Shown here: in pieces, positions 14,507 through 63,429 of the stretch | How the letters are laid out: each line of letters begins with the position of its first letter | Position numbering within the stretch: the first letter of the stretch is position 1 | IMG/VR virus record: IMGVR_UViG_3300032093_010543 | Location: 1 to 63,987 of that record | Strand: one strand, 5' to 3' | Source of the DNA: a virus | Length of the DNA stretch: 63,987 nt | Notes under the pieces: generated by a model | What the model was told of the DNA's origin: nothing | Database searches by the model: none | What the model saw: only the letters and a program-made list of their open reading frames with translations | Position numbers and translations under genes: made by a program

Positions 14507-14512
14507 TTAATT

Positions 14513-14833: not shown

Positions 14834-14843
14834 TTGATAATAA

Positions 14844-16370: not shown

Positions 16371-16400
16371 ACATAAACTAAAAATAAAAAACCTAAAAAA

Positions 16401-28073: not shown

Positions 28074-28075
28074 AA

Positions 28076-29134: not shown

Positions 29135-29139
29135 ATCTA

Positions 29140-30764: not shown

Positions 30765-30788
30765 ATTTTAATTTTACTCTACGATGTT

Positions 30789-31784: not shown

Positions 31785-31787
31785 ATA

Positions 31788-35920: not shown

Positions 35921-35923
35921 TAT

Positions 35924-36604: not shown

Positions 36605-36615
36605 AAATTATAAAA

Positions 36616-37335: not shown

Positions 37336-37346
37336 TTGTTTATAGT

Positions 37347-39965: not shown

Positions 39966-39966
39966 A

Positions 39967-42074: not shown

Positions 42075-42799
42075 TATTTTAAACTTTTTAATTTCATTAT
42101 TGCGTCAATTAATACCTCAACATCTCTTTCGCAATATTCAGATATTTCTTTCAATCTGTTGTGTCCCCAATATGCTTCGTGAACCATTCCCCCGTTTACC
42201 TCACCATCTTTTGGTGTTGGAATATCTAAACATGCACACATCAAATCTAATGAACCAATAGCAGTGTACGCACCATATTGCCAAATTTCTTTAGTATCAA
42301 TTGCCTTTACTTCCCATGGTTTTGTATCATATGAAGGAAGAATCTTTGATGGCATAATTCCATTCACAATCATTCTTTTCGCTAACATTGGAATGTCAAA
42401 GTTTTTAAGGTTATGACCACAAAGATAAAAATCCAATTTATGACATCTATTTAACAAATCCCTAACCTCTAAAAGTAATTTGTATTCATCATCTCCCGAA
42501 AAAGTTTGTTTTTTTGTTTCACCATTGTCTAAAACAAACGCCATAGAAACACACACAATTTTTGCAAATTCAGGAACAAGTGCTGATCTTTTTTTAAAAA
42601 CAATGTCCATATGTTCTTCTGTTGTTCTATCTTCTCCCCATTCTTTGTCTTCAGGAAATCTTTTTAGAAACCAATCAAAATATTTGTCAAATTGTTCTGC
42701 AACTCTTGGGTTTGATTGAAGACATGTTTGGTAATCGGCACATCCGCCAACAGTTTCTATATCTAAAAATAAAATTTTTGTTATTGGGATATTAATCAT
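42074..42799 (-). CDS. DEDDy 3'-5' exonuclease (DnaQ-like)
   Basis: 241 residues. ILFLDIETVGG carries Asp13 and Glu15, CGHNLKNFD carries Asp135, and ISEYCERDVEVL carries Tyr222 and Asp226. This is the full DEDDy set. There is no polymerase domain, so it is a stand-alone 3'-5' exonuclease related to the proofreading part of family-B polymerases. Probable role in DNA repair, proofreading or nucleotide scavenging. Its ends overlap or nearly touch dut and the GT4 gene. Confidence 0.88.
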   Translation of the reverse strand: MINIPITKILFLDIETVGGCADYQTCLQSNPRVAEQFDKYFDWFLKRFPEDKEWGEDRTTEEHMDIVFKKRSALVPEFAKIVCVSMAFVLDNGETKKQTFSGDDEYKLLLEVRDLLNRCHKLDFYLCGHNLKNFDIPMLAKRMIVNGIMPSKILPSYDTKPWEVKAIDTKEIWQYGAYTAIGSLDLMCACLDIPTPKDGEVNGGMVHEAYWGHNRLKEISEYCERDVEVLIDAIMKLKSLK

Positions 42800-42801
42800 G
42801 A

Positions 42802-44013
42802 TTATTTAATTAAAGATTTGTAAAATGATGCTCTTTCACGTGACACATTGTTTATATCATATTTGTCTTTTACGGTTTCGTATAACCTTTCACCAAGATC
42901 TACAATCATATTCGGGTTTTCAACAAGTTTTTTAATATTTTTTACCCAATCACTATGATTTTTTGACTCATCAACTAATAATGCATTTCCATCGACAAAC
43001 TGACCATTTTTTAATGAATGTTTCAAATCAATTGTGTAAGGACCTATATTGGAGGCTATGAGAGCTTTTTTGTAAAATCCGGCCTCAATAACTTTCAATT
43101 GAGATTTCATTCTATTAAAAATGTGATTTTTAATTGGTGCTAATGAAATGTCAAATTTAGCGTAATTTCTTGCGTATGAATCAGTAGGTCTAGTCCAAAC
43201 TCTAACATAGTTTTCAGTTTTGATTGCGGGATATTCTTCCTCTTTAAATCTATCTAAAAACAATTTGTATTCAGGTGAAATAATTTTATAGTTGTCTGTA
43301 AAAATATGTTCATACATCGACCAAACCGTTTCTTGAGGCTTAATCGGTCTTTGTCTTTTTTCTCCAGTATCTTTGTTAATTTCTGTAACACTTCCTCTTG
43401 TGTCAAAACCACAAAGATAGTATTGTAATTTTTCTTGTAGAGGAGAAAGTTTATTAACCATACCATCTAACAACTTTAAATCATGTAAATGTGATGATCC
43501 ACCTAACCAACCAACACGAACTTTATCAGAAGGAAGTGTTGGTTCTGTAAACTGACCTTCTTTTGGATCAATTGCGTTAGGGAAAACAATAACATTTTTG
43601 TTAAATTTTCTAATTTCGTTAGCAAAAATTTCTGTAGTTGTTGTTACATAATCTGACGCCTTTAGATTTTCTACAATCTTAAGGTGCATTTTATCATTAA
43701 TAATTAGGTTGTGAATTGGGTGTTCTTTTGTAGGTAACCAATAATCGTCAATATCTGCAATTACAATAATACCCAAACTCCTCAAAGACTTAATTATTGT
43801 TGGACATTGATCCAAATCACCAAAATTTCTATGAAAATGAACTATTTGATAATTTTGCCAATAATTCAAATCATTAATTCTTGGTTTATAATCAATATCA
43901 ATGTGGAAATCATTAGGATATAAATTTTGTAGATTGATGTGTGGATCTACTGAACGATATTTACCAACACCACTTGTGTCGGAAGGTAATACTAATACTT
44001 TAATTTTAGACAT
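42802..44013 (-). CDS. Glycosyltransferase, GT4-like, first gene of the operon
   Basis: 403 residues from ATG 44013 (MSKIKVLVLPSDTSGVGKYR); an upstream ATG at 44058 would add a basic 15-residue leader but lies before the predicted promoter -7 box. C-terminal VWTRPTDSYARNYAKFDISL and FNRMKSQLKVIEAGFYKKAL match the GT4 donor site. The N-half has VHFHRNFGDLDQCP. As the first gene after a promoter it leads the 17-kb minus-strand operon. Confidence 0.8.
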   Translation of the reverse strand: MSKIKVLVLPSDTSGVGKYRSVDPHINLQNLYPNDFHIDIDYKPRINDLNYWQNYQIVHFHRNFGDLDQCPTIIKSLRSLGIIVIADIDDYWLPTKEHPIHNLIINDKMHLKIVENLKASDYVTTTTEIFANEIRKFNKNVIVFPNAIDPKEGQFTEPTLPSDKVRVGWLGGSSHLHDLKLLDGMVNKLSPLQEKLQYYLCGFDTRGSVTEINKDTGEKRQRPIKPQETVWSMYEHIFTDNYKIISPEYKLFLDRFKEEEYPAIKTENYVRVWTRPTDSYARNYAKFDISLAPIKNHIFNRMKSQLKVIEAGFYKKALIASNIGPYTIDLKHSLKNGQFVDGNALLVDESKNHSDWVKNIKKLVENPNMIVDLGERLYETVKDKYDINNVSRERASFYKSLIK

Positions 44014-44027
44014 AAATTTCTTTTGTA

Positions 44028-44058
44028 GAAATCTAAGAATTTTACACACAATAATCAA
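44028..44058 (-). promoter_or_regulatory. Candidate Bacteroidota-type promoter of the glycosylation operon
   Basis: Minus strand: TTG (44058-44056), 20 nt, TAGATTTC (44035-44028). One mismatch to TAnnTTTG at ideal spacing, just after the terminator of the preceding unit and 14 nt before ATG 44013. No TATTTAT is near, so early or middle expression is likely. Confidence 0.45.
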
Positions 44059-46821: not shown

Positions 46822-49068
46822 ATGGCATACCAAAATATAAATCAATATAACTACCCAAAGTTAAAGTTACAACTCATTTATGATGGGCAAGATATGTCTT
46901 TGGCGTCTGATGAGGTAGACTTTAATCAAGAGGTAGTTTTTTCTCCATATATAATAGGTGCCGACAATGGTGAGAAATTACCTGTGAATGTTGATTTGAA
47001 TAGTCCATTATCAACTCAAAACTTAAAATTAACCTATGGTGTATATAACCCTAATAATGTTGTAATCTCAGAATCATTTTATGAACCTAAGGATTTACGA
47101 ATTGATTGTTTTACCGCAGGTACAACTTGTGATATTGGTTTAACGGGAATAGATAATGGTTTAGTTGACAATATTGTTGGTGAAACTTTAAACTATACAA
47201 ATGGTTTATTCACAGACGCTGTTAAGTTTGATAGAATGTTTTATGATAGACGAATGAAGTTTATTCAAACAACTACAAATGTCCCACAAAATAATAAATT
47301 TTCAGGAATACCAAAATATACGGCTTATGAAATGGTATCTAAAAATAATCCACAAGTGGGTAGATACGTTGAATTATATGGTGGGTTTTATCAAGGATTT
47401 TATAAATTATTTGGTTATGATTATGAAATCTTACCTGAAAGAATGAAAAAAGGTTGGTCTGTAGAAATGATCTTAAAACCTAGACTGATTAATGAATACA
47501 TCCCAAAACCTGGATACGAAACATTAAATCAAATTTACCCAAATAATAAAAATACTTTATTTTATTTAGGAACAAGAGCTGAGAATAAATTTTATCATTA
47601 TGCGGACGGTTCACCAAAATGTGATCCTAATTATGTTAGGGTTACTTCAGAATTAGCAGGATGCTTTCAAACATGTGCGTGTTGCAATTATGAAGTAAAG
47701 AATAGTAGATGTATATACGTATACCCACCAAGACCAATTGGCGGTGTCTACGATCCACATTTTAATTATGGTTGTAATCTTTGTCATGGAAATTATGAAA
47801 CCAAACTTACTTGTGGTTGTGGTTGTGATTTAGATCCTTGTCTTACTTGTGGTTGGATGTGTTTTGAACATAAATGTAATACAATTATAGTACCTTCTCC
47901 TACGCCAACGCCGACACCAACGCCGACACCTCCTTGTGATACATACCCAACACAAGTTGCATGTCCACCAAAACCTTGTTGTACAACATGTGTTAGTTGT
48001 GGGTGTGATAGTTGTGGTTGTCCACCCGCATATCCATCTGACACATTTTCATCAATTGAGGATACATGTGAAAAAGATCCTAAGTTTGATGCACTATCAA
48101 ACAATTTTTCAATCAGATTATGTGGTGACCCAAAAAATCCCGGAATTGGTATTAGAGTTTTAAAAATAACGGGAGATTGTGAGACCACAGGAACATGTGT
48201 AACAGGACAAACATATGTAACTGGTTACACAATACAAGATATTTGTACACCACCAATTTATCCTTTTTGTTTACAAACTAATCCCGCTTGGTTGGAGTAC
48301 GAGCATTGGTTCCAACTAGATGTTGTATTTGAAAGATACACTTTTATTGATTATTGTGATTTAAGATGGTTTGGAGGTTTAGATCAGATAACAAGACTTG
48401 AGTATTTGGCATCACTTGCAAATAACACAGTTTCTTTGATTGAACCACCAGTTACAAACGGGTATGAAATTCCAAAACAAGTTGAAATAGTACAACTAAA
48501 TCAAACATGGTTGGATGAGACAAAATTTAGAAGAGGAAGATTAAGAATTTTTATAAATGGTAGAATATTTTTTACAATTGAGGATTTTGAAGAAGTAATA
48601 CCAAGAGCTTTGGATACCGATAAAGAAAAACAAGTTGCGGTTCCATTTAACATGTCTTGGGGTGGAGGAACTCAAGGTTTACATGAAAATCTAACATTAT
48701 CTGCTTGTACGGCAACAACAATTGGTGATTATATACAAGATCCTGAATGTTTTCCTGAAAATATTTTAAGTGCAACAACCTTAAATAAACTTAAAACTCA
48801 CATTCTTTTAGAAGAAAATTTTGCAGGAACTTTTGAAGGTGGTATATCTCAATTTAGATTTTATACAGAACCTTTATCGGCACCTGAAGTCAAACATAAT
48901 TTTAAATTATTGAAAGATAAATTCATGATGTTTGATCCTGATTGTCCTGTTTGTAATACTGAAACATGTGCTCCTAATGATTATACATATATCATTTCTA
49001 ATGATGTGACAACAACAACTACAACAACAACGGGGTCAACAGGTAGAGTTTCTTTTACTTTAGGTTAA
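46822..49068 (+). CDS. Tail adhesin-like protein with LamG-type fold and Cys-rich insertion
   Basis: 748 residues. An early WSVEMILKPRL strand (about residue 215) and the late GRLRIFINGRIFFTIEDFEE and GTFEGGISQFRFYTEPLSAP segments fit a concanavalin/LamG-like sandwich. Between them, residues about 266-420 form an insert with more than 25 Cys (CACCNYEVKNSRC, CGCGCDLDPCLTCGWMC, CCTTCVSCGCDSCGC), interrupted by a short Pro-Thr repeat at about 357-370. Ends with a Thr run. The Cys density suggests disulfides or metal. Probable receptor-binding or fibre-associated virion protein; no enzymatic motif. Upstream of two further fibre-type genes in the same direction. Confidence 0.65.
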   Translation: MAYQNINQYNYPKLKLQLIYDGQDMSLASDEVDFNQEVVFSPYIIGADNGEKLPVNVDLNSPLSTQNLKLTYGVYNPNNVVISESFYEPKDLRIDCFTAGTTCDIGLTGIDNGLVDNIVGETLNYTNGLFTDAVKFDRMFYDRRMKFIQTTTNVPQNNKFSGIPKYTAYEMVSKNNPQVGRYVELYGGFYQGFYKLFGYDYEILPERMKKGWSVEMILKPRLINEYIPKPGYETLNQIYPNNKNTLFYLGTRAENKFYHYADGSPKCDPNYVRVTSELAGCFQTCACCNYEVKNSRCIYVYPPRPIGGVYDPHFNYGCNLCHGNYETKLTCGCGCDLDPCLTCGWMCFEHKCNTIIVPSPTPTPTPTPTPPCDTYPTQVACPPKPCCTTCVSCGCDSCGCPPAYPSDTFSSIEDTCEKDPKFDALSNNFSIRLCGDPKNPGIGIRVLKITGDCETTGTCVTGQTYVTGYTIQDICTPPIYPFCLQTNPAWLEYEHWFQLDVVFERYTFIDYCDLRWFGGLDQITRLEYLASLANNTVSLIEPPVTNGYEIPKQVEIVQLNQTWLDETKFRRGRLRIFINGRIFFTIEDFEEVIPRALDTDKEKQVAVPFNMSWGGGTQGLHENLTLSACTATTIGDYIQDPECFPENILSATTLNKLKTHILLEENFAGTFEGGISQFRFYTEPLSAPEVKHNFKLLKDKFMMFDPDCPVCNTETCAPNDYTYIISNDVTTTTTTTTGSTGRVSFTLG

Positions 49069-49098
49069 ATCAAAAAGATATAAATAAGGTTATGGTTG

Positions 49099-49105
49099 TA
49101 TTTAT
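49099..49105 (+). promoter_or_regulatory. TATTTAT motif before the 49117 gene
   Basis: TATTTAT 11 nt before ATG 49117, in the 48-base gap after the adhesin gene. Confidence 0.55.
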
Positions 49106-49116
49106 TGAGAAATACA

Positions 49117-50142
49117 ATGAGTCAAATTATTACAATAAATAGTATCAATCACGACGGTGAACTAGCCAATGTTTTGTTCACGCCTGATAATGATCCTGTT
49201 GTAATAAATTTGGGTGATGTAACATTACCTTTGGTTTTTGAACCTTCGTTATTAATCCCACCAAGAGAAGTTTACGGAACATACACAATTTATACATATG
49301 AAGACAAATGTACTAACATATTACAAGTACCACGTCCTACACCAACACCAACACCTACAGTAACACCGACAAGAACTGCGACTCCTACACCAACACCAAC
49401 ACCTACAGTAACACCAACATACGAACCTTGTGCTTCTGCAACACCTGCACCAACACAAAACCCAACTCCAACACCAACAAGGACTCCAAGACCTACACCT
49501 ACACCAACGACTACTCTTCCTCCTTGTTTGTCACAAACACCGACGCCGACGCCAACGCCGACGCCAACTACACCTCCAAACTATTTCGCATACTTGTTTA
49601 TAGAACCTGTTTCAGGATCATCCGCAATTGGATCTTATATGTACGCAAATGGTTCTAACTTCTTTGGATTTACTAATGCTTCTCAACCAACACAAAGTCA
49701 GACACAATTCAATATAGATATGAATTTATATATGAATTATGCTTCATGGACTAATGGACAATTCCCAAGTATAGTCGTTCAATCTGTTCCACAGACTACA
49801 GGTGGTGATGATGCATTTGGAAATCCAATTAGTAAATATAATTTCTTCACAACAGAAATTAAATCAGGTACAGTACTTTCAAAAGCGTGGTACACTTGGT
49901 TTATTCCTGTAATTGCAACAAACAATGAAATACAAACTGAAATCTACATAAATGCAATGGGTAACCCAACTCAACAAGAATCTGTTGGAACTGAACCTAC
50001 AATTAATAGTTATTTAGTTAATTACACAGGATCAACAATTCCTTCAGGAACTTATCGAGTTTATACGACATTCCCTAACCAAATATTTAGATTAAACAAT
50101 AATAACAATATTTATTTTAGAGGTAGTGATACCCAACCATAA
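49117..50142 (+). CDS. Fibre-type protein with Pro-Thr stalk
   Basis: 341 residues from ATG 49117 (MSQIITINSINHDGELANVL); an in-frame TTG at 49096 falls before the late motif. A beta-rich domain of about 70 residues, a Pro-Thr stalk (about residues 71-153, with TPTPTPTVTPTRTATPTPTP and similar), then a beta-rich domain of about 185 residues starting NYFAYLFIEPVSGSSAIGSY. The stalk is Thr-dense and would be a good O-glycosylation target. It shares its direction and probably its transcript with the giant fibre gene 12 bases downstream. Confidence 0.65.
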   Translation: MSQIITINSINHDGELANVLFTPDNDPVVINLGDVTLPLVFEPSLLIPPREVYGTYTIYTYEDKCTNILQVPRPTPTPTPTVTPTRTATPTPTPTPTVTPTYEPCASATPAPTQNPTPTPTRTPRPTPTPTTTLPPCLSQTPTPTPTPTPTTPPNYFAYLFIEPVSGSSAIGSYMYANGSNFFGFTNASQPTQSQTQFNIDMNLYMNYASWTNGQFPSIVVQSVPQTTGGDDAFGNPISKYNFFTTEIKSGTVLSKAWYTWFIPVIATNNEIQTEIYINAMGNPTQQESVGTEPTINSYLVNYTGSTIPSGTYRVYTTFPNQIFRLNNNNNIYFRGSDTQP

Positions 50143-50154: not shown

Positions 50155-53100
50155 ATGGCAAATCCGTATAAAAATCCACAAACACCTTTATTATCGGTTG
50201 GAACTTTTTCAGTTCAACCAAGTCAAACATTTGGTACTAATTTTAGTATATATGGTGTTGGTGGTTATGTAGAAGTTTATGAACTTCAGGATTTAATATA
50301 CACCATACCATCAGGTTCACAAGGAGATATAGAATTTTCAGGTAATACAATTCCAATACAATTTCAAAAAGGTAGCGGATCAGTTTTTTCACCCGATGTT
50401 TTGACATTAAATTCAGATAACATTTCATCGGGTCGTAGAAGACTTGGTATGTTAGCATATGTGTATTCAACACAAGAGATATTTCAATATAACATCCCAA
50501 ATTATACAACACTTTGGAATAATGCGTTAGCATCCTCAGGACCTGGAGGACCAACGGTGGTACAATCAAAGTTTGGAACTACAGTTAAAAGTAATTCAGT
50601 GGCAGGAAAGGCACTAATTAGTGCTTGGACGGGGTCAACTATTCAAGGACACAGTGGTGGAACTGCGAATTCTAATTGGAGATTGTTAGATACAGGTGGT
50701 TGTTGTATTACAGGATTTACATATAATAACGATAATAGTTTTACAATATACGATGATAACGGTGGTGTGTTTACTGCATCATTTGATGTTGTTACAGGTT
50801 TAACAGTATCAGGAGGAACTTTAATTGTTAATGGTGTTAATATAACAGGAGACACTTATACAACAGGCGGAACATATTTTAGTGCGTCGAGTACGATTGA
50901 TTTATATGATAATCAAGGTGGAATTATAAGTATTACAGGTGTTACGGCAACTGGTGCTGCAGGTTCAAGTGGTACATCTGGTTCAAGTGGTACATCAGGG
51001 ACTAATGGTTCAAGCGGAACCAACGGGACTTCAGGTACAAATGGAACAAACGGTTCGAGCGGAACCAACGGGACTTCAGGTACTAATGGTACGGATGGGA
51101 CTTCAGGTACTAATGGTACGGATGGGACTTCAGGTACTAATGGTACGGATGGTACTTCAGGCACAAACGGAAGTAATGGTACAAGCGGGTTATCAGGGGT
51201 AAATGGTACTTCAGGTACAAACGGAACTTCGGGAACTAATGGTACAAACGGAACTTCGGGAACTAATGGTACAGATGGTAGTTCAGGCACTAACGGAACA
51301 GATGGTAGTTCAGGTACAAATGGAACTAACGGAACTAATGGTACAGATGGTAGTTCAGGAACTAACGGAACAGATGGTAGTTCAGGTACAAATGGAACTA
51401 GCGGAACTAATGGAACTTCAGGAACCAATGGAACCTCAGGAACCAATGGAACAAATGGAACTAGCGGTACAAATGGAACTAATGGCACCTCAGGAACAAA
51501 TGGTACTAATGGAACATCGGGAACCAATGGAACTTCAGGTACAAATGGAACCAATGGTACTAGCGGAACAAACGGAACATCAGGCACTAACGGAACTAAT
51601 GGAACATCAGGCACTAACGGAACTAATGGTTCAAGTGGTACCAATGGTACATCAGGTACTAACGGAACTAACGGAACATCAGGAACTAACGGAACTAACG
51701 GAACATCAGGTACTAACGGAACATCAGGTACTAACGGAACTAATGGGACAAGCGGTACTAATGGGACAAGCGGTACTAATGGAACTTCAGGAACTAATGG
51801 AACTAATGGTACAAGCGGTACTAATGGAACAAACGGCACAAACGGTTCAAGTGGTACCAACGGTACTAGCGGAACTAATGGAACTAATGGAACATCAGGA
51901 ACCAATGGAACGAATGGTACATCGGCCACAAATGGAACTAGCGGGACTAATGGTTCAAGTGGAACGAATGGTACAAGTGGTTTATCAGGTGTAAATGGTA
52001 CATCAGGAACTAATGGAACTTCAGGAACTAATGGTACAAACGGTACTAGCGGAACCAACGGAACATCTGCCACTAACGGAACTTCAGGTACAAATGGAAC
52101 TTCAGGTACAAATGGAACTTCAGGTACAAATGGAACCAATGGTACTAGCGGAACGAATGGAACCTCAGGGACTAATGGTACCTCAGGAACTAATGGAACG
52201 AATGGTACAAATGGAACTAGCGGAACAAATGGTACTAATGGGACTTCTGGTACGAATGGAACAAACGGAACTAGTGGAACAAACGGAACTAGTGGAACAA
52301 ATGGAACAAACGGTACTTCAGGTACAAATGGTACGAATGGAACTAGCGGAACTAATGGTACTTCAGGCACTAACGGAACGAACGGTACTTCAGGTACAAA
52401 CGGAACTTCAGGTACAAATGGAACAAACGGTACTTCAGGTACAAATGGTACAAATGGAACTAGCGGAACGAATGGAACATCAGGCACTAACGGAACTAAT
52501 GGTACCAACGGTACTAGTGGAACAAATGGAACAAATGGAACATCAGGCACTAACGGAACTAATGGTTCAAGTGGTACCAACGGTACTAATGGCACCTCAG
52601 GAACAAATGGTACTAATGGAACATCGGGAACAAATGGTACTAATGGAACATCGGGAACCAATGGAACTTCAGGTACAAATGGAACTAATGGGACTAGCGG
52701 TACAAATGGTACTGATGGAACTAGCGGTACAAATGGTACTAGTGGAACCAATGGGACAAACGGAACATCAGGTACTAACGGAACGAATGGTACTAGCGGA
52801 ACAAATGGTACCTCAGGTACTAACGGAACTAATGGAACCTCAGGAACCAATGGAACAGATGGATCTTCAGGTACAAATGGTACAAATGGAACTAGTGGAA
52901 CGAACGGAACATCAGGAACAAACGGTACTAATGGAACATCGGGAACAAACGGAACATCAGGTACTAACGGAACCTCAGGAACAGATGGAACATCAGGTAC
53001 AAATGGAACATCAGGCACCAATGGAACATCTGGTACTAACGGAACTAATGGAACCAACGGAACTTCAGGTACAAATGGAACATCAGGCACTAACGGAACT

Positions 53101-56100
53101 AACGGGACTTCAGGTACTAACGGAACAAACGGAACAAACGGTACAAGTGGAACAAATGGAACTAGCGGAACTAATGGTACTAATGGAACAAGTGGGTTAT
53201 CGGGTGTAAATGGTACTAGTGGGACAAATGGAACTAATGGAACATCAGGTACAAATGGTACTAGTGGGACAAATGGAACTAATGGTACATCAGGGACTAA
53301 TGGTACTAATGGGACTTCGGGAACAAATGGATCAAGTGGAACTAACGGTACTAATGGGACATCAGGTACAAATGGTACTAGCGGAACTAATGGAACTAAT
53401 GGAACTTCAGGAACAAATGGTACCAATGGGACTTCTGGCACGAACGGAACTAGCGGTACAAACGGAACTAATGGATCATCAGGTACTAATGGAACGAATG
53501 GTACAAGTGGTACAAATGGTACGAACGGAACTAATGGAACGAATGGTACAAGCGGTACAAATGGAACTAGCGGAACAAATGGAACCTCAGGAACAAACGG
53601 TACTAATGGAACATCGGGAACAAACGGAACATCAGGTACTGATGGAACAAATGGTACGAACGGAACTTCAGGTACTAATGGTACAAATGGAACCTCAGGT
53701 ACTAATGGTACTAGCGGAACAAATGGAACTTCAGGTACAAATGGGACAAATGGTACAAACGGTACATCAGGTACGAATGGAAGTAGCGGGACCAATGGTA
53801 CTAATGGAACGAATGGTTCAAGTGGAACTAATGGAACGAATGGTACTGACGGTACTAGTGGGACAAATGGAACTAGCGGTACAAATGGTACAAATGGTAC
53901 TAGCGGAACTAATGGTACAAACGGTACTAGTGGAACCAATGGAACTAGCGGAACAAATGGTACAAACGGATCTTCAGGTACTAACGGTACAAGTGGAACC
54001 AATGGGACAAACGGAACATCAGGTACTGATGGGACTAACGGAACCAACGGTTCTTCAGGTACTAATGGAACTAATGGTACTAATGGTACAAGCGGAACAA
54101 ATGGTACTAACGGAACCTCAGGAACAAATGGAACGTCAGGGACTAATGGTACTAATGGTAGTTCAGGTACAAACGGAACGAATGGAACATCGGGCACTAA
54201 CGGAACTTCAGGAACAAATGGTACTAGCGGGACCAACGGTACAAATGGTACTAGCGGGACCAACGGGACTAGTGGAACAAACGGCACTTCGGGTACAAAT
54301 GGTACTAATGGTACTAATGGTACGTCAGGTACTGATGGAAGTAGTGGAACAAACGGTACTAATGGTACTTCAGGTACGAATGGTACAAACGGAACTTCAG
54401 GAACAAATGGTACCAATGGAACTAGCGGAACGAATGGTACTAGTGGAACAAACGGTACTAATGGTACTTCAGGTACGAATGGTACAAACGGAACTTCAGG
54501 AACAAATGGTACTAATGGTACTTCAGGTACAAACGGAACTTCAGGAACAAATGGTACCAATGGAACTAGCGGAACGAATGGTACTAGTGGAACAAATGGT
54601 ACTTCAGGTACAAACGGAACTTCAGGAACAAATGGTACCAATGGAACTAGCGGAACAAATGGTACCAATGGAACTAGCGGAACGAATGGTACTAGTGGAA
54701 CAAATGGTACTAATGGTACTTCAGGTACAAACGGAACTTCAGGAACAAATGGTACCAATGGAACTTCAGGAACCAACGGAACAAATGGAACTAACGGTAC
54801 AAGTGGGACAAATGGTACCTCAGGTACGAACGGTACAAATGGAACCTCAGGAACAAACGGAACTAATGGTACGTCAGGCACTGATGGAAGTAGTGGAACA
54901 AATGGTACAAACGGGACTTCTGGTACGAATGGTACAAATGGTACTTCAGGAACTAATGGAACATCAGGTACGAACGGTACAAACGGAACTTCAGGAACTA
55001 ATGGAACATCAGGTACGAACGGTACAAATGGGACTTCTGGAACCAATGGTACTAATGGTACGAGCGGGACCAATGGTACTAACGGTACAAACGGAACTTC
55101 AGGTACGAATGGGACAAATGGTTCAAGCGGTACTAACGGTACGTCAGGTACGAATGGGACAAATGGTTCAAGCGGTACTAACGGTACGTCAGGTACAAAT
55201 GGAACTAATGGAACTAATGGTACAAGCGGAACAAATGGTACAGATGGTACTTCAGGAACAAATGGTACAAACGGCACTTCAGGTACGAATGGGACATCAG
55301 GAACTAATGGTACAAATGGAACTAGTGGAACGAACGGAACTAACGGATCATCAGGTACTAATGGAACGAATGGTACTTCAGGAACTAACGGAACTTCAGG
55401 AACAAACGGTACTAATGGAACAGATGGTACTAGCGGGACCAACGGTACAAATGGTACTAGTGGAACGAATGGAACAAACGGTACTTCGGGTACAAATGGG
55501 ACTAGTGGAACAAATGGTTCAAGTGGAACTAACGGAACGAATGGTACATCAGGTACAAACGGAACTAATGGTACGTCAGGTACTGATGGAACTAGTGGAA
55601 CAAATGGTACCAATGGGACAAGTGGAACGAACGGAACTTCAGGAACCAACGGTACAAACGGATCATCAGGTACTAATGGAACTAATGGAACTAATGGTAC
55701 ATCTGGTACTAATGGAACAAATGGAACTAGCGGTACGAATGGTACTAGCGGAACAAATGGTACAAACGGCACTTCAGGTACAAATGGTACTAACGGTACA
55801 AGTGGAACAAATGGTACCTCAGGTACGAATGGGACAAATGGAACATCAGGTACAAACGGGACTTCTGGTACAAATGGAACTAGCGGTACGAATGGCACTT
55901 CAGGTACAAATGGAACAAATGGTACAAGTGGAACAAATGGTACAAGTGGAACAAATGGTACCTCAGGTACAAATGGTACAAATGGAACTTCAGGAACTAA
56001 CGGAACTTCAGGTACAAACGGCACTAGCGGAACAAATGGAACAAATGGAACCTCAGGTACAAATGGAACATCAGGAACTAATGGGACTTCGGGAACTAAT

Positions 56101-59100
56101 GGTACTAGTGGAACGAATGGAACATCGGGAACAAACGGAACTAATGGTACTAGTGGAACGAATGGTACTAACGGAACTAGCGGAACAAATGGTACTTCAG
56201 GAACTAACGGTACTAACGGCACAAGTGGAACAAATGGTACTAACGGAACTAGCGGAACAAATGGTACTTCAGGAACTAACGGTACTAACGGCACAAGTGG
56301 AACAAATGGTACTAATGGAACATCGGGAACAAACGGAACTAATGGAACAAATGGAACTAGCGGTACTAATGGTACATCAGGAACTAACGGAACTAATGGT
56401 ACTAGTGGAACAAATGGAACATCGGGAACAAACGGAACTAATGGTACTAGTGGAACGAATGGTACTAACGGAACCAATGGAACTTCAGGGACTAATGGGA
56501 CTTCTGGCACTAATGGAACAAATGGAACTAGCGGTACGAATGGAACAAATGGAACTTCAGGTACTAATGGTACCTCAGGTACAAATGGAACTAGCGGTAC
56601 GAATGGAACAAATGGAACTTCAGGTACTAATGGGACCTCAGGTACAAATGGAACATCAGGAACTAACGGTACTAATGGTACATCAGGAACTAATGGCACA
56701 TCAGGTACTAACGGTACTAACGGTACATCAGGAACTAATGGAACATCAGGTACTAATGGGACTAGTGGAACAAATGGAACAAATGGTTCAAGCGGTACAA
56801 ATGGAACTAGCGGAACGAATGGTACAAATGGAACTAGCGGAACGAATGGTACAAATGGAACTAACGGTACATCAGGTACAAATGGTACTAATGGGACTTC
56901 GGGAACCAATGGTAGTAGTGGAACTAATGGTACAAACGGCACTTCAGGTACGAATGGAACATCAGGAACAAATGGCACTAACGGTACAAGTGGGACAAAT
57001 GGAACTTCAGGAACTAACGGTACTAATGGTACATCAGGAACTAACGGAACTAGCGGAACCAATGGTACAAATGGAACTAACGGAACTAGCGGAACCAATG
57101 GTACAAATGGAACTTCAGGAACTAACGGTACTAATGGTACATCAGGAACTAACGGAACTAGCGGAACCAATGGTACAAATGGAACATCAGGTACAAACGG
57201 AACTAATGGTACTAGTGGAACGAATGGTACTAGCGGTACAAATGGTACAAATGGAACTTCAGGTACTAATGGTACTAGCGGAACAAATGGAACTAATGGA
57301 TCTTCAGGCACAAATGGAACATCGGGAACAAACGGAACTAATGGCACTAGTGGAACGAATGGTACTTCAGGTACCAATGGAACTAGCGGGACCAATGGAA
57401 CATCAGGAACAAATGGTACAAATGGTACGAGCGGGACCAATGGAACTAGCGGTACTAATGGGACATCAGGGACTAACGGAACGTCAGGAACAAACGGAAC
57501 GAGCGGTACAAATGGTACTAACGGAACTAGTGGTACAAATGGTACAAGTGGAACAAACGGTACAAACGGCACTAGCGGAACAAATGGAACGTCAGGGACT
57601 AATGGTACAAATGGAACTTCAGGGACTAATGGTACAAATGGAACTAATGGTACATCAGGTACAAATGGAACGTCAGGGACTAATGGTACAAACGGCACTT
57701 CAGGAACCAACGGGACTAATGGAACTAGCGGAACAAATGGTACTAATGGAACATCAGGAACTAATGGAACTAGCGGAACAAATGGTACAAACGGGACTTC
57801 GGGGACTAATGGAACAAACGGAACTTCAGGAACCAACGGGACTAATGGAACTAGCGGAACAAATGGTACTAATGGAACATCAGGAACTAATGGAACTAGC
57901 GGAACAAATGGTACAAACGGGACTTCGGGGACTAATGGAACAAACGGAACTTCAGGAACCAACGGGACTAATGGAACTAGCGGAACAAATGGTACTAATG
58001 GAACATCAGGAACTAATGGAACTAGCGGAACAAATGGTACAAACGGGACCTCAGGTACGAATGGAACAAATGGAACATCGGGTACTAACGGAACTAATGG
58101 TACAAACGGAACATCAGGTACTAACGGAACTAGTGGTACAAACGGAACTTCAGGTACGAATGGGACAAATGGTTCAAGCGGTACCAATGGTACTAGCGGT
58201 ACAAATGGAACAAACGGTACTAGTGGAACAAATGGAACCTCAGGAACGAATGGTACTAATGGAACATCGGGAACCAATGGAACTAGCGGAACTAATGGTA
58301 CGAACGGTACAAGCGGTACCAATGGTACTAGCGGTACTAATGGAACTAGCGGTACTAATGGAACAAATGGAACCTCAGGAACGAATGGTACTAATGGAAC
58401 ATCGGGAACCAATGGAACTAGCGGAACTAATGGTACGAACGGTACAAGCGGTACCAATGGTACTAGCGGTACTAATGGAACTAGCGGTACTAATGGGACA
58501 AATGGTACGAGCGGGACTAATGGAACATCGGGAACCAATGGAACTAGCGGAACTAATGGTACGAACGGTACAAGTGGAACAAATGGAACTAGCGGTACTA
58601 ATGGAACTAGCGGTACTAATGGGACAAATGGTACGAGCGGGACCAATGGAACATCAGGAACAAATGGTACAAATGGTTCAAGTGGTACCAACGGAACTAG
58701 CGGAACAAATGGTACGAATGGTACCAACGGTACTAGCGGAACAAATGGTTCAAGCGGTACTAATGGTACTTCAGGAACTAACGGAACTAATGGTACTAGC
58801 GGAACAAATGGTTCAAGCGGTACTAATGGTACTTCAGGAACTAACGGAACTAATGGATCTTCAGGTACTAATGGTACATCTGGTACTAATGGAACCAACG
58901 GAACTAGCGGAACAAATGGTACTTCAGGAACCAACGGTACTAGTGGAACAAACGGAACAAATGGAACTAGTGGAACAAATGGTTCTTCAGGTACAAACGG
59001 AACAAATGGTTCGAGTGGTACCAACGGAACTAGCGGGACCAATGGAACTTCAGGAACTAATGGAACAAATGGTACAAGTGGTACTAATGGAACATCAGGA

Positions 59101-62100
59101 ACTAATGGATCTTCGGGAACTAATGGTACTAGCGGTACTAACGGAACATCAGGAACGAATGGTACTAGCGGAACAAACGGAACTTCAGGAACCAACGGGA
59201 CTAATGGAACATCAGGTACAAATGGAACGTCAGGGACTAACGGTACAAATGGGTCAAGTGGTACAAACGGAACGTCAGGTACTAATGGGACTTCGGGAAC
59301 AAATGGAACCAACGGTACAAATGGGTCAAGTGGTACAAACGGAACAAACGGTACAAGTGGAACCAACGGAACATCGGGAACTAATGGTTCTAGCGGTACG
59401 AATGGTACTTCAGGAACTAATGGTACGAATGGATCTTCGGGAACTAATGGTACTAGCGGTACTAACGGAACTAATGGATCTTCAGGTACAAATGGAACAT
59501 CAGGTACTAACGGAACTAATGGATCTTCAGGTACAAATGGAACATCAGGTACTAACGGAACTAATGGATCTTCAGGTACAAATGGAACGTCAGGAACTAA
59601 TGGAACTTCAGGTACAAACGGAACAAACGGTAGTTCGGGAACAAATGGAACTAGCGGTACAAATGGGACTAATGGCTCTTCAGGAACAAATGGAACTTCA
59701 GGAACCAACGGAACAAACGGTACTTCAGGAACCAACGGAACATCGGGTACTAACGGAACTAGTGGGACAAATGGTACTAACGGGTCTTCAGGTACAAATG
59801 GAACGTCAGGAACTAATGGAACTTCAGGTACAAACGGAACAAACGGTAGTTCGGGAACAAATGGAACTAGCGGTACAAATGGGACTAATGGATCTTCAGG
59901 TACTAACGGGACAAATGGTTCAAGCGGTACCAACGGAACTTCAGGAACTAACGGAACATCCGGTACTAATGGAACAAATGGTTCAAGTGGTACCAACGGA
60001 ACTAGTGGTACTAACGGAACAAATGGATCGAGCGGTACAAATGGAACAAACGGTTCAAGTGGAACAAACGGAACATCAGGAACTAATGGTACAAGTGGAA
60101 CCAACGGAACATCAGGAACTAATGGAACCAATGGTACAAGTGGGGTTTCTCCTACAGTACCTGGAGCTAATAATGAAGTACTAACTTCAGATGGTGCGGG
60201 CGGCATAGTTGCTGAATCACTTTTAACTTTTGATGGTACAATCACATCACCTTACTTGAATATTAATTCAGTAAAGGTAGGTAGAGGGAATAACAATGTT
60301 GCAACTAACATTTCAATTGGATGTACGGTTGCATTTGCTAATACCGCAACGGGACCATTAAACATTGCAATTGGTGGATTTTCTTTAAAATGTAATACTA
60401 CAGGATGTAGGAATGTTGGTATTGGACCGAACAGCCTTTACACGAATACTTCAGGAAATAGAAATATTGGTATTGGATATAGGTCTTTACTGTTGAACTC
60501 GAATGGTGCAGAAAACGTCGCAATAGGGGGACAATCTACTTTATCTTCAAATACCTCGGGAAGTAATAATGTTGGTATTGGTAGCTACGCTTTGAGATAT
60601 ACAACAACAGGAAATTACAACTTTGCGATTGGTAGTAGAGTATTAAATTGTAATACAACGGGAAGTTGTAATATTGGTATTGGTCGATTATCATTATATT
60701 GTAACACAACTGGTTGTCACAACACGGCATTTGGATTTTGTTCATTACGTAGTAATACTACAGGTTCACAAAATAATGCAATGGGTCAATACGCATTGAG
60801 AAGTAACACTACAGGTTCACAAAATAATGCATTTGGGCGTAATGCTTTACGAAGCAATGTTAGTGGTGTCAATAACGTCGCAATTGGTGATGGTACTTTA
60901 TTTAATAATACAATTGGTAGTGGTAATTTAGCAGTTGGGTATCGATCTATGTCTTCAAACATAAATGGGGGTAATAATACCGCAATTGGTAGATACTCTT
61001 TACAATCTAACACACAGGGAACCTATAATAACGCGATAGGATTATCTTCATTACGTAATAACACATTAGGTTGTCATAATACGGCAATTGGTAGGTATTC
61101 ATTGTTAAATAACAATACAGGTAACTTTAATACCGCAATTGGTCAATATGCTTTAAGAAATAATACGTCGGGTCTTCATAACATAGCAATTGGTTGTCAA
61201 TCCTTACGTTATAATACAACAGGGTGTGATAATGTTTCGTTTGGACGAGACGCATTACGTTTCTCTACAACAGGCAGTAATAATATTGGAATTGGTAGAG
61301 AAACTCTATACGCATTTGGGGCTAAATATGACAACGTTGCGATAGGGTATCGATCTTTAAAATGCGTAACAACAGGATGTTGTAATATAGCAATTGGTAG
61401 ACGAGCATCATATAATAATACAACTGGTAATAATAATGTTTCTATTGGATCGGGAGTATTATTTCAAAATACAACGGGTTGTCAAAATATTGGAATAGGA
61501 ATATCTAATTTAGATAATAATACGACAGGTTATCAGAATATCTCCATAGGTGCGTCCGCTTCACTTGCCAATACAACTGGATCACGAAACCTTTCAATTG
61601 GGTACAGAGCATTATTTTCAAATGTTGGGGGTTGTTATAATATTGCAATAGGTCACTTTAGTTTATATTGTAGTAATACACTAAGTCACGAAATTGCAAT
61701 TGGTTCGGAAGCTATGAGATATAGAGCCCCTTTCAATTTACCTGGACCTGCAAATATTGCTATTGGTCTGTTCGCCCTAAGGGGGTGTAACTATACGTAT
61801 AAACAATGTGGATATGGAAACATTGCAATTGGCGGTTGTTCTCAAAGATATAACTCTACAGGACATTACAATATAGGTATAGGTAGTAACACATTAACTT
61901 TAAATAAAACTGGACGGCAAAATGTTGCTATTGGTGCAAATGCACTTAGAAATACAACAGCTTACAATCCATCCGTAGCGGTAGGTTTTTTAGCCTTATG
62001 TACCCAAACAACAGGTTATAATAATACTGCAGTAGGTACGAGAGCTTTACAATCAAATTCAACTGGTATTAGAAATACCGCAGTTGGTCATTTCGCATTA

Positions 62101-63429
62101 ATATATAATACTGGAAATGACAATACTGGAGTGGGTTACAATACTCAAAATAATGGAGGAACTGCATATGCAAATAGTTCCTTAGGAAGTAAAACATTAG
62201 AGTCCAACATAGCAGGTTTTCATAATGTTGCTATGGGATATAGAGCATTAGCAAAAAATTTGACTGGTTTTAAAAATACTGGTTTAGGTTCTCGTTCAAT
62301 AGAAAATAATACTTATGGTCATAATAATATTGGAATTGGTTATCAATCTCTATATAACAATAACACAGGATATCAAAACATTGCAATAGGTACTTGTAGT
62401 TTACTAAATAATACATACGGTCAATTTAATATTGCTCAAGGATATAGAGCCATGTATAATAACACGTATGGATGTTTTAACGTTGCAATTGGTAGATGTG
62501 TACTTGAAAATAATACAACCGCAAATGAAAACATTGCTATCGGTAGAAAACCTTTATTCTCAAACACTACAGGTACTCAAAACATCGCTTTAGGTAGAAA
62601 CGCACTTATCTGTAACTCAACAGGAAATTACAACATTGCAATGGGTAGAACTGCACTATATGAAAATACAACTGGTGTAGGAAACGTTTCAATTGGTATT
62701 CGAACAATGGCATATAACAAATCAGGATCTTGTAATGTTGTTTTAGGTTATAGAGCAAATTATAATGGTTATCAGTCGTGTTTTAATGTGTTTATAGGTA
62801 CTAAAGCAGGTTGTAATCATTCTTGTTATTGTACTAATGCTAATGTTGCAATAGGATTTCAAGCTTTATTCTCAAGTGTTGCAACTTCAGAAAACGTTGC
62901 TATTGGTACTGAAACATTATATGGTAATACTTCGGGTGGTGTAAACGTTGCAATAGGGGAAAGATCTCAAAGAAATTTAACTACAGGTCAAAGAAACGTA
63001 AGTGTTGGTTCGCGAGCCATGTATTATGCAACCACAACTAGATATAGTATTGGTGTAGGTGCTTGGGCGGGGTCTAAATTAACTACAGGTTATGATAATA
63101 TTGCAATCGGTAGATGTGCATCTTATAATCAACCAACAACATCTAAGAATAATATTGCCATAGGTAGAGAAGCAAACTGTGCAACAACTTATCAAGGTGA
63201 TAATAATATATTTTTGGGTTACAGAACTGGTATGCCGACTGGTAACTACACCGCTTCAGTTGCGATAGGTGGTTATACAGACATACAAGCTAGTAATTAT
63301 ATACACTTTGGTTCTGCAGTAGGAGGATTCAATTTGGGGGTTGTTAGTTCAGGTATTGGATGTACGGTTAGTGATATTTGGCCTGTTTATATCAATGGAG
63401 TGTTGAGAAAAATAATGTTATCTTGTTAA
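50155..63429 (+). CDS. Giant collagen-like tail fibre with YadA-head-like C-terminus
   Basis: 4,424 residues from one uninterrupted frame (one fifth of the window). Residues 1-266: a beta-rich attachment domain. Residues 267-3330: about 1,021 Gly-X-Y triplets, X almost always Thr and Y Asn, Ser or Asp, with no Pro. Three GLSGVNG variants (near 51190, 51980, 53195) are the main interruptions of the pattern, though Gly periodicity is kept. Residues about 3386-4372: about 57 beta-roll repeats of 17-24 residues with the core N-x-A/G-I-G, then S-L-x-x-N-T-T-G, like YadA-head or hep_Hag repeats, many with Cys. The last 45 residues are a small end domain without an S74 chaperone signature. Trimeric assembly is expected from both repeat types. 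No TATTTAT directly precedes it; it may share the 49117 transcript. Confidence 0.9.
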   Translation: MANPYKNPQTPLLSVGTFSVQPSQTFGTNFSIYGVGGYVEVYELQDLIYTIPSGSQGDIEFSGNTIPIQFQKGSGSVFSPDVLTLNSDNISSGRRRLGMLAYVYSTQEIFQYNIPNYTTLWNNALASSGPGGPTVVQSKFGTTVKSNSVAGKALISAWTGSTIQGHSGGTANSNWRLLDTGGCCITGFTYNNDNSFTIYDDNGGVFTASFDVVTGLTVSGGTLIVNGVNITGDTYTTGGTYFSASSTIDLYDNQGGIISITGVTATGAAGSSGTSGSSGTSGTNGSSGTNGTSGTNGTNGSSGTNGTSGTNGTDGTSGTNGTDGTSGTNGTDGTSGTNGSNGTSGLSGVNGTSGTNGTSGTNGTNGTSGTNGTDGSSGTNGTDGSSGTNGTNGTNGTDGSSGTNGTDGSSGTNGTSGTNGTSGTNGTSGTNGTNGTSGTNGTNGTSGTNGTNGTSGTNGTSGTNGTNGTSGTNGTSGTNGTNGTSGTNGTNGSSGTNGTSGTNGTNGTSGTNGTNGTSGTNGTSGTNGTNGTSGTNGTSGTNGTSGTNGTNGTSGTNGTNGTNGSSGTNGTSGTNGTNGTSGTNGTNGTSATNGTSGTNGSSGTNGTSGLSGVNGTSGTNGTSGTNGTNGTSGTNGTSATNGTSGTNGTSGTNGTSGTNGTNGTSGTNGTSGTNGTSGTNGTNGTNGTSGTNGTNGTSGTNGTNGTSGTNGTSGTNGTNGTSGTNGTNGTSGTNGTSGTNGTNGTSGTNGTSGTNGTNGTSGTNGTNGTSGTNGTSGTNGTNGTNGTSGTNGTNGTSGTNGTNGSSGTNGTNGTSGTNGTNGTSGTNGTNGTSGTNGTSGTNGTNGTSGTNGTDGTSGTNGTSGTNGTNGTSGTNGTNGTSGTNGTSGTNGTNGTSGTNGTDGSSGTNGTNGTSGTNGTSGTNGTNGTSGTNGTSGTNGTSGTDGTSGTNGTSGTNGTSGTNGTNGTNGTSGTNGTSGTNGTNGTSGTNGTNGTNGTSGTNGTSGTNGTNGTSGLSGVNGTSGTNGTNGTSGTNGTSGTNGTNGTSGTNGTNGTSGTNGSSGTNGTNGTSGTNGTSGTNGTNGTSGTNGTNGTSGTNGTSGTNGTNGSSGTNGTNGTSGTNGTNGTNGTNGTSGTNGTSGTNGTSGTNGTNGTSGTNGTSGTDGTNGTNGTSGTNGTNGTSGTNGTSGTNGTSGTNGTNGTNGTSGTNGSSGTNGTNGTNGSSGTNGTNGTDGTSGTNGTSGTNGTNGTSGTNGTNGTSGTNGTSGTNGTNGSSGTNGTSGTNGTNGTSGTDGTNGTNGSSGTNGTNGTNGTSGTNGTNGTSGTNGTSGTNGTNGSSGTNGTNGTSGTNGTSGTNGTSGTNGTNGTSGTNGTSGTNGTSGTNGTNGTNGTSGTDGSSGTNGTNGTSGTNGTNGTSGTNGTNGTSGTNGTSGTNGTNGTSGTNGTNGTSGTNGTNGTSGTNGTSGTNGTNGTSGTNGTSGTNGTSGTNGTSGTNGTNGTSGTNGTNGTSGTNGTSGTNGTNGTSGTNGTSGTNGTNGTSGTNGTNGTNGTSGTNGTSGTNGTNGTSGTNGTNGTSGTDGSSGTNGTNGTSGTNGTNGTSGTNGTSGTNGTNGTSGTNGTSGTNGTNGTSGTNGTNGTSGTNGTNGTNGTSGTNGTNGSSGTNGTSGTNGTNGSSGTNGTSGTNGTNGTNGTSGTNGTDGTSGTNGTNGTSGTNGTSGTNGTNGTSGTNGTNGSSGTNGTNGTSGTNGTSGTNGTNGTDGTSGTNGTNGTSGTNGTNGTSGTNGTSGTNGSSGTNGTNGTSGTNGTNGTSGTDGTSGTNGTNGTSGTNGTSGTNGTNGSSGTNGTNGTNGTSGTNGTNGTSGTNGTSGTNGTNGTSGTNGTNGTSGTNGTSGTNGTNGTSGTNGTSGTNGTSGTNGTSGTNGTNGTSGTNGTSGTNGTSGTNGTNGTSGTNGTSGTNGTSGTNGTNGTSGTNGTSGTNGTSGTNGTSGTNGTSGTNGTNGTSGTNGTNGTSGTNGTSGTNGTNGTSGTNGTNGTSGTNGTSGTNGTNGTSGTNGTNGTSGTNGTNGTNGTSGTNGTSGTNGTNGTSGTNGTSGTNGTNGTSGTNGTNGTNGTSGTNGTSGTNGTNGTSGTNGTNGTSGTNGTSGTNGTSGTNGTNGTSGTNGTSGTNGTSGTNGTNGTSGTNGTSGTNGTNGTSGTNGTSGTNGTSGTNGTNGSSGTNGTSGTNGTNGTSGTNGTNGTNGTSGTNGTNGTSGTNGSSGTNGTNGTSGTNGTSGTNGTNGTSGTNGTSGTNGTNGTSGTNGTSGTNGTNGTNGTSGTNGTNGTSGTNGTNGTSGTNGTSGTNGTNGTSGTNGTNGTSGTNGTSGTNGTNGTSGTNGTSGTNGTNGSSGTNGTSGTNGTNGTSGTNGTSGTNGTSGTNGTSGTNGTNGTSGTNGTSGTNGTSGTNGTSGTNGTSGTNGTNGTSGTNGTSGTNGTNGTSGTNGTSGTNGTNGTSGTNGTNGTNGTSGTNGTSGTNGTNGTSGTNGTNGTSGTNGTNGTSGTNGTSGTNGTNGTSGTNGTNGTSGTNGTNGTSGTNGTNGTSGTNGTSGTNGTNGTSGTNGTNGTSGTNGTNGTSGTNGTNGTSGTNGTSGTNGTNGTSGTNGTNGTSGTNGTNGTNGTSGTNGTSGTNGTSGTNGTNGSSGTNGTSGTNGTNGTSGTNGTSGTNGTNGTSGTNGTSGTNGTNGTSGTNGTSGTNGTSGTNGTNGTSGTNGTNGTSGTNGTSGTNGTNGTSGTNGTSGTNGTSGTNGTNGTSGTNGTSGTNGTSGTNGTNGTSGTNGTSGTNGTSGTNGTNGTSGTNGTSGTNGTNGSSGTNGTSGTNGTNGTNGTSGTNGSSGTNGTSGTNGTNGTSGTNGSSGTNGTSGTNGTNGSSGTNGTSGTNGTNGTSGTNGTSGTNGTSGTNGTNGTSGTNGSSGTNGTNGSSGTNGTSGTNGTSGTNGTNGTSGTNGTSGTNGSSGTNGTSGTNGTSGTNGTSGTNGTSGTNGTNGTSGTNGTSGTNGTNGSSGTNGTSGTNGTSGTNGTNGTNGSSGTNGTNGTSGTNGTSGTNGSSGTNGTSGTNGTNGSSGTNGTSGTNGTNGSSGTNGTSGTNGTNGSSGTNGTSGTNGTNGSSGTNGTSGTNGTSGTNGTNGSSGTNGTSGTNGTNGSSGTNGTSGTNGTNGTSGTNGTSGTNGTSGTNGTNGSSGTNGTSGTNGTSGTNGTNGSSGTNGTSGTNGTNGSSGTNGTNGSSGTNGTSGTNGTSGTNGTNGSSGTNGTSGTNGTNGSSGTNGTNGSSGTNGTSGTNGTSGTNGTSGTNGTNGTSGVSPTVPGANNEVLTSDGAGGIVAESLLTFDGTITSPYLNINSVKVGRGNNNVATNISIGCTVAFANTATGPLNIAIGGFSLKCNTTGCRNVGIGPNSLYTNTSGNRNIGIGYRSLLLNSNGAENVAIGGQSTLSSNTSGSNNVGIGSYALRYTTTGNYNFAIGSRVLNCNTTGSCNIGIGRLSLYCNTTGCHNTAFGFCSLRSNTTGSQNNAMGQYALRSNTTGSQNNAFGRNALRSNVSGVNNVAIGDGTLFNNTIGSGNLAVGYRSMSSNINGGNNTAIGRYSLQSNTQGTYNNAIGLSSLRNNTLGCHNTAIGRYSLLNNNTGNFNTAIGQYALRNNTSGLHNIAIGCQSLRYNTTGCDNVSFGRDALRFSTTGSNNIGIGRETLYAFGAKYDNVAIGYRSLKCVTTGCCNIAIGRRASYNNTTGNNNVSIGSGVLFQNTTGCQNIGIGISNLDNNTTGYQNISIGASASLANTTGSRNLSIGYRALFSNVGGCYNIAIGHFSLYCSNTLSHEIAIGSEAMRYRAPFNLPGPANIAIGLFALRGCNYTYKQCGYGNIAIGGCSQRYNSTGHYNIGIGSNTLTLNKTGRQNVAIGANALRNTTAYNPSVAVGFLALCTQTTGYNNTAVGTRALQSNSTGIRNTAVGHFALIYNTGNDNTGVGYNTQNNGGTAYANSSLGSKTLESNIAGFHNVAMGYRALAKNLTGFKNTGLGSRSIENNTYGHNNIGIGYQSLYNNNTGYQNIAIGTCSLLNNTYGQFNIAQGYRAMYNNTYGCFNVAIGRCVLENNTTANENIAIGRKPLFSNTTGTQNIALGRNALICNSTGNYNIAMGRTALYENTTGVGNVSIGIRTMAYNKSGSCNVVLGYRANYNGYQSCFNVFIGTKAGCNHSCYCTNANVAIGFQALFSSVATSENVAIGTETLYGNTSGGVNVAIGERSQRNLTTGQRNVSVGSRAMYYATTTRYSIGVGAWAGSKLTTGYDNIAIGRCASYNQPTTSKNNIAIGREANCATTYQGDNNIFLGYRTGMPTGNYTASVAIGGYTDIQASNYIHFGSAVGGFNLGVVSSGIGCTVSDIWPVYINGVLRKIMLSC
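57701..58050 (+). repeat. 126-bp tandem duplication within the fibre repeat
   Basis: The same 126-bp sequence (42 codons) begins at 57701, 57827 and 57953, the last copy being incomplete. A similar 135-bp then 126-bp spaced block follows between 58241 and about 58600. Near-identity at synonymous sites means recent duplication. Confidence 0.75.
59461..59589 (+). repeat. 45-bp tandem repeat within the fibre gene
   Basis: The block starting ggatcttcaggtacaaatgg begins at 59476, 59521 and 59566, period 45 bp (15 codons), the third copy diverging after 24 bases. Confidence 0.8.

Follow-up and report, generated by a model that had tools for sequence, protein, structure and literature searches.

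A 1,022-triplet, proline-free Gly-X-Y stalk in a large freshwater phage and the TibC-like enzyme predicted to glycosylate it

Introduction

The stretch of virus DNA analysed here (IMG/VR record IMGVR_UViG_3300032093_010543, positions 1 to 63,987; "the window", 63,987 nucleotides) is a linear fragment of a large freshwater phage and carries a giant, tail-fibre-like gene. Between an N-terminal region and a C-terminal tip, its product repeats Gly-X-Y in collagen register for 1,022 triplets without a single proline, so that the helix-stabilising imino-acid/hydroxyproline content of a collagen is missing. The locus raises the question of what such a stalk is and what could make it stable, stiff or soluble enough to serve in a fibre. 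The original prediction, made from the letters of the window, proposed that either modification stabilises the stalk or the region is a flexible tether. Judging from the genes of this and related phages, we consider it probable that the product is a modular fibre whose stalk is O-glycosylated by a TibC-like enzyme of the same phage.

Results

Repeat pattern and composition of the stalk

Gly starts 1,020 of the 1,022 triplets, in uninterrupted runs of 108, 15 and 897 (Table 1). The original prediction had placed about 1,021 triplets at residues 267-3330 with Gly unbroken; its register stands, the count and extent become 1,022 triplets and residues 267-3332, and two Ala breaks, at residues 591 and 639, had been overlooked. 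The prevailing triplets are GTN (600) and GTS (339), followed by GSS (54) and GTD (18), while GLS, GVN, GVS, GSN, GAA and the two ATN at the breaks are rare. Position X is occupied by Thr in 959 triplets (94%) and by Ser in 55, and position Y by Asn in 606, Ser in 397 and Asp in 18; Pro, Lys and Arg are all absent, in agreement with the earlier description of X-Y as nearly all Thr-Asn or Thr-Ser without proline. The Pfam Collagen profile (PF01391) scores 1,298 bits against a gathering cut-off of 27.2, and a fully extended stalk would measure 3,066 residues x 0.286 nm = ~877 nm, so the collagen-like character and the calculated length of about 0.9 micrometre given originally both hold. Searching the stalk sequence against the PDB returned composition-type matches to collagens only, and a literature search for GTSGTNG repeats found no paper. 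The stalk (window 50953-60150) has a G+C content of 44% compared with 33% for the contig, and it contains 606 Asn-Gly pairs, always with Thr or Ser as the next residue, which are deamidation-prone and formally constitute N-X-S/T sequons.

A TibC-like enzyme linked to Gly-Thr/Ser-X stalks

The virus continues on a 136-kb contig (3300032116_000032) that starts inside the same stalk and overlaps the window by 4,890 bp with 0 mismatches. There, 3.8 kb beyond the stalk gene and convergent with it, lies the gene of a 969-residue enzyme consisting of a GT1 part, a TibC/AAH-type protein O-glycosyltransferase in the middle and an FkbM-methyltransferase. The enzyme scores 287.9 bits against TIGR04414 (curated cut-off 200) and matches the PDB entry of TibC, 4RAP, with an expectation value (E) of 1.8e-68. 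Among the functional residues named for TibC (PMC4358343), the catalytic base D110, T226, K230, W305 and the iron-finger Cys 339/342/358/370 are invariant in six phage copies. By family the phage enzyme is a TibC/AAH-type protein O-glycosyltransferase, with heptosyl transfer as a possible activity. A targeted literature search for phage-borne autotransporter heptosyltransferases led to a review that describes none.

The linkage of this enzyme to Gly-Thr/Ser-X stalks was assessed by counting stalks within 10 kb of 80 loci of enzyme relatives and of two control genes from the same phages, at 80 loci each. A stalk was found at 55/80 enzyme loci, usually just downstream and convergent, as against 17/80 for an exonuclease and 15/80 for an N-acetylglucosamine (GlcNAc) transferase. 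After clustering at 90% identity, the counts are 34/46 for the enzyme, 3/23 for the exonuclease and 5/27 for the GlcNAc transferase (Fisher p ~2e-6 and ~7e-6, respectively); at 80% identity the controls shrink to 2-3 clusters and the all-loci contrast loses significance. In the reverse direction, TIGR04414 is present above its cut-off in 24 of 46 stalk records, and the records with at least 300 triplets that lack it appear, in our reading, to be cut at or shortly past the stalk. The pairing also occurs in the isolated Microcystis phage Mel-JY01 (PP395634; L390), where an unannotated Gly-X-Y frame of 203 triplets (2-3050, cut at the record start) is followed by a TibC-like enzyme of 1,226 residues at 4750-8430; much of this frame is overlaid by two annotated hypothetical proteins on the minus strand.

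A scan of bacterial and archaeal genomes provided the eight nearest cellular relatives of the enzyme (L393-L400). Seven reside on methanotroph or Polaromonas contigs, the latter from a metagenome-assembled genome, and six of these seven adjoin a small Gly-Thr/Ser-X repeat protein, mostly with a signal peptide as assessed by eye without a predictor; examples are found in Methylobacter luteus (L394, at 8944-9795) and Methylobacter sp. BlB1 (L395, containing GTNGTSG). On the seventh contig (L397), a shorter protein containing GSN/GSS lies beside the enzyme. The remaining relative lies on a contig binned as Bacteroidetes, possibly phage DNA, with 58 Gly-Thr/Ser-X triplets no more than 10 kb away. 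Remoter homologues (e.g. L402, L436, L439) precede large adhesin-like open reading frames (ORFs), the canonical arrangement, and Gly-Thr/Ser-X repeats within 10 kb were found in 0/16 of the canonical TibC-type loci sampled. In the phylogenetic tree, the phage and methanotroph enzymes group together against the canonical set with support 100/100.

Selection on the stalk protein

Third-codon bases of equal triplets agree at ~0.43, with 0.44 expected from composition, and since this agreement is no higher than composition predicts, the synonymous sites are randomised. The protein retains Gly, Thr in position X and Asn/Ser in position Y while synonymous sites randomise, a pattern that is not due to chance. 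Reuse of the same codon between neighbouring triplets is even below that in shuffled sequences (z = -5 for Thr), a trend that recurs in most other stalks and amounts to a natural scrambling of codons by which DNA repeats are kept down.

The stalk was also compared with that of a relative, L008, which agrees with the window gene in 97% of anchor codons. Every indel is a multiple of 9 nt, no Gly is changed, both Ala breaks are kept and replacements mainly exchange Asn and Ser. The codon differences came to 162 synonymous and 60 replacement ones, a count limited by how hard repeats are to align. A DNA similarity search for a mosaic origin of the stalk yielded only ~70% repeat-to-repeat matches. 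Adjacent Ser-Y triplets are rare in the window stalk (6 seen, 150 expected) and in other Asn-rich stalks; as a universal code, the rule that Ser triplets are never adjacent was rejected, since it fails in Ser-rich stalks.

Anchor, tip and modularity

The presumed virion anchor is 94-99% identical in L007, L008 and L009 and 53-61% identical (best tblastn segment) in L018, L024 and L066, and related anchors precede stalks of differing length with differing tips. Thus, the complete L009 protein (1,005 aa) combines the same anchor with 94 triplets and another tip. Structure prediction for the anchor gave an uninformative model, with a predicted local distance difference test (pLDDT) score of 33. 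The tip matches PHROG 6002, 23837 (virion structural) and 4636 (tail spike) with E of 1e-134 or lower and is predicted to be all-beta (pLDDT 66); a Foldseek search of this model against the PDB, in which a YadA-like beta-roll was considered, returned no significant match (best E 0.8). The ORF would encode one chain of a modular tail fibre or similar fibre, presumably located on the virion.

The beta-repeat tip of L009 is encoded apart, by a gene of 713 aa that has its own start, and L024 has two stalk genes, the second of which resembles this tip gene at its N-terminus. Because of this arrangement, the window gene may have arisen by fusion of two adjacent stalk genes.

Proposed mechanism and alternative explanations

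In the proposed mechanism, a single long chain would combine the N-terminal anchor, the Gly-Thr-Asn/Ser stalk as a spacer and the beta-repeat tip. In the infected cell and ahead of assembly, the TibC-like enzyme would attach sugars to stalk Ser and/or Thr, and neighbouring genes possibly add sulfate and methyl groups to the glycosylated stalk. The sugars would render the proline-free chain stable, stiff or soluble enough to place the tip at a long distance from the particle. Since the enzyme repeatedly adjoins such repeats in phages and methanotrophs, the virus itself probably coats the stalk with sugars. With regard to the two options of the original prediction, modification is favoured by the linked TibC-type gene together with a sulfotransferase and an APS-kinase-like gene, and a tether is compatible with it.

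Several points weigh against this mechanism. As is known from host-guest peptides, Thr in position X and Asn in position Y favour the triple helix poorly. The control genes cover a narrower clade than the enzyme; several other contigs with stalks of less than about 210 triplets carry no enzyme on the contig; and the phage branches L373, L376 and L382 pair the enzyme with Pro-Thr-rich repeat fibres, not Gly-X-Y, so the shared feature may be Thr/Ser-rich stalks in general. The TibC sugar-contact residues Arg286 and Pro300 are replaced by Val and Gly, respectively, in all six phage copies, and the donor sugar may for that reason differ from that of TibC. According to PMC4358343, the known substrates of TibC and AAH are modified on Ser and not on Thr; Thr fills 94% of X here, and the real acceptors could be Ser at Y (397 sites) or the tip repeats. 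Finally, glycosylation, the trimer, the helix and the virion location, as well as placement in the tail and extension to about 0.9 micrometre, are all predicted from the DNA.

With sugars attached, the stalk could form a triple helix or stay a flexible, mucin-like chain. That the stalk forms no collagen helix and acts as a flexible, brush-like tether, with reach provided by entropy and not rigidity, is a possibility to which we give a minor but real share. Such a tether suits a polar, low-complexity chain without proline, related enzymes adjoin Pro-Thr-rich, mucin-like fibres in some phages, and both kinds of Ser/Thr-rich stalk are found repeatedly among these phages; however, Gly at 1,020 of 1,022 triplets, the randomised synonymous sites and the 9-nt register of indels would be needless for a mere tether.

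Less likely still is a plain, unmodified collagen-like triple helix, the enzyme being directed at the tip repeats, a small second fibre or a host surface molecule. The composition of the stalk, a poor helix former, argues against it, as do the methanotroph and Polaromonas enzymes, beside which the only repeat proteins found are of the Gly-Thr/Ser-X type, without a phage tip. On the other side, the Ser residues modified by TibC lie in beta-solenoid repeats and the tip is rich in beta structure, and stable unmodified phage collagen-like tail fibres are known, namely EPcl of E. coli prophages (PMC3368898).

We regard it as very improbable that the stalk is an assembly artefact, with inflated repeats or with two stalk genes joined. 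Two contigs from other samples, 3300031963_011225 (window 40155-58234) and 3300031951_017642 (window 57797-63987), jointly tile the entire stalk with 0 mismatches, which speaks against the assembly fault named as a risk in the original prediction. An exact 126-bp tandem within the stalk (Table 1) is where several other contigs stop or shift by 126-135 bp, and the exact triplet count may consequently be off by some tens; outside it, exact DNA repeats of more than 100 bp are few. Sister loci do hold two separate genes, one with the anchor and one bearing the beta tip. Nonetheless, a DNA-pattern scan identified ~55 virus contigs with Gly-Thr-Asn/Ser stalks, and complete stalk ORFs elsewhere, with neighbouring pieces stitched, comprise 1,104, 701, 696, 677, 644 and 566 triplets, so that the stalk is no isolated artefact. 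Many contigs, among them some of 373 kb, terminate within a stalk.

The idea that the open antisense frame codes and the Gly-X-Y frame is its shadow, in line with the two minus-strand genes of the deposited Mel-JY01 record, has a negligible chance: the selection pattern, the homologous anchor and tip and the neighbouring genes all match the plus frame, and the reverse complement of GGN-ACN-AAY/Ser codons is stop-free in that frame, which makes the antisense ORF the shadow.

The virus and the neighbourhood of the stalk gene

The window contains T4-like head genes and the continuing contig adds a DNA polymerase and a tail sheath, which identifies a tailed phage; with this contig, its genome amounts to at least about 195 kb. 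The major capsid protein is related to gp23 of T4-like phages, and its closest named relatives, all below 47% identity, are those of an uncultured 484-kb phage, Microcystis phage Mel-JY01 and Flavobacterium phages.

Table 1. Coordinates of the stalk-fibre gene, its parts and other features in the window
Feature	Position	Strand	Description
T4-like head genes	8032..18347	+	terminase, portal, prohead protease, major capsid protein; PHROG and Pfam matches
Glycan cluster	26524..44058	-	GDP-mannose-dehydratase/epimerase-type genes, DegT aminotransferase, several glycosyltransferases
Two-domain GT2 glycosyltransferase	39967..41469	-	500 aa; PF13712 + PF00535
Second upstream gene	46822..49068	+	748 aa; 58-100% identity across stalk loci
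Gene directly upstream of stalk gene	49096..50142	+	348 aa; conserved beside stalk genes
Giant stalk-fibre gene	50155..63429	+	ATG-to-stop frame without N, 4,424 aa; tail-fibre-like
N-terminal region, presumed virion anchor	50155..50952	+	residues 1-266
Antisense ORF	50913..60245	-	3,110 aa; stalk shadow, no gene
Gly-X-Y stalk	50953..60150	+	residues 267-3332; 1,022 triplets in register
Register break 1	51925..51927	+	Gly->Ala at residue 591, ATN triplet; kept in relative L008
Register break 2	52069..52071	+	Gly->Ala at residue 639, ATN triplet; kept in relative L008
Exact tandem within stalk	57697..58049	+	period 126 bp, 227-bp exact match
C-terminal tip	60151..63429	+	1,092 aa; many 17-aa NxAIGxxSLxxNTTGxx repeats
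Sulfotransferase start, cut at contig end	63476..63987	+	PF13469; 272 aa on continuing contig

On the continuing contig, the stalk gene is followed by genes for the sulfotransferase, an APS-kinase-like protein (scoring below its equivalog cut-off) and a nucleotidyltransferase-like protein, and then by the convergent 969-aa enzyme. A cassette of sulfotransferase, APS-kinase-like, nucleotidyltransferase and TibC-like genes also lies near the stalk in 343-373-kb phages and a related contig (L131, L132, L135), although the capsid proteins are hardly related; the sulfotransferase adjoining the stalk genes of the 343-373-kb phages is 50% identical.

The GT2 glycosyltransferase has 62-99% identical copies or remoter relatives in 22 of 48 other stalk records searched and was not found in the 373-kb stalk phages searched; as independent evidence it was set aside, most carrier contigs belonging to one capsid clade. 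The same virus encodes a second small collagen-like fibre (L127 13431-14765; 444 aa, 41 triplets) directly before a PF11397 polypeptide GlcNAc transferase gene. The latter was rejected as the stalk enzyme and dropped as specific evidence, because its linkage to Gly-X-Y stalks (15/80) is no closer than that of the exonuclease control (17/80). Near other PF11397 genes (L150, L149, L183 and others) there are Ser/Thr(Pro)-rich ORFs of up to 1,542 aa with 42-45% Ser+Thr, and the TibC-like enzymes of L373, L375, L376, L377, L379, L380 and L382 lie by Pro-Thr-rich (TPTETPTQT)n fibre genes with Cys-containing domains.

Discussion

Several known systems share features with the fibre and enzyme described here. 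The collagen domains of EPclA/EPclB-type fibres from E. coli prophages are much shorter than 1,022 triplets. These "bacteriophage collagen" proteins likewise carry Gly-X-Y between conserved non-collagen domains and are presumed to be trimeric tail fibres (PMC3368898), whereas the present stalk lacks proline altogether, comprises 1,022 triplets and has a linked glycosyltransferase. A glycosylated, Thr-rich collagen-like region is also present in BclA and further bacterial collagen-like glycoproteins (PMC8968730); in the BclA type, however, Pro is at X and Thr at Y, as opposed to Thr at X, Asn/Ser at Y and a TibC-type linked enzyme here. With TibC/AAH (BAHT), the phage enzyme shares TIGR04414 membership, the catalytic Asp, the iron finger and a gene position beside the presumed substrate, but it is fused to GT1 and FkbM-methyltransferase parts, has Arg286/Pro300 replaced, belongs to a separate clade and is partnered by a Gly-Thr/Ser-X repeat protein and not an autotransporter. 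Mimivirus, a eukaryotic virus, attaches sugars to hydroxylysine with an enzyme type unrelated to TibC. It resembles the present phage as a virus encoding both a collagen-like protein and its glycosylation (cited in PMC8968730).

A broader proposal, on which we are evenly divided, is that a distinct TibC-like subfamily of large phages and methanotrophs is dedicated to the glycosylation of proline-free Gly-Thr/Ser-X repeat proteins and that phages thereby build micrometre-long, glycan-stabilised fibres, collagen-like or mucin-like, as an alternative to proline hydroxylation in obtaining stable Gly-X-Y stalks.

If the proposed glycosylation is true, it would explain the stability of proline-free Gly-X-Y stalks and name their probable cognate enzyme, and the phage fibres would rank with the longest known from a single gene. 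Since stalk genes break many metagenome assemblies, counts of such fibres are probably too low, and the genes may be mis-annotated on the antisense strand, as in Mel-JY01. The two-gene pairs of enzyme and repeat protein in cultured methanotrophs and in the isolated Microcystis phage would serve as test systems, and the pairing would open a way to produce glycosylated collagen-like materials from genetically encoded parts.
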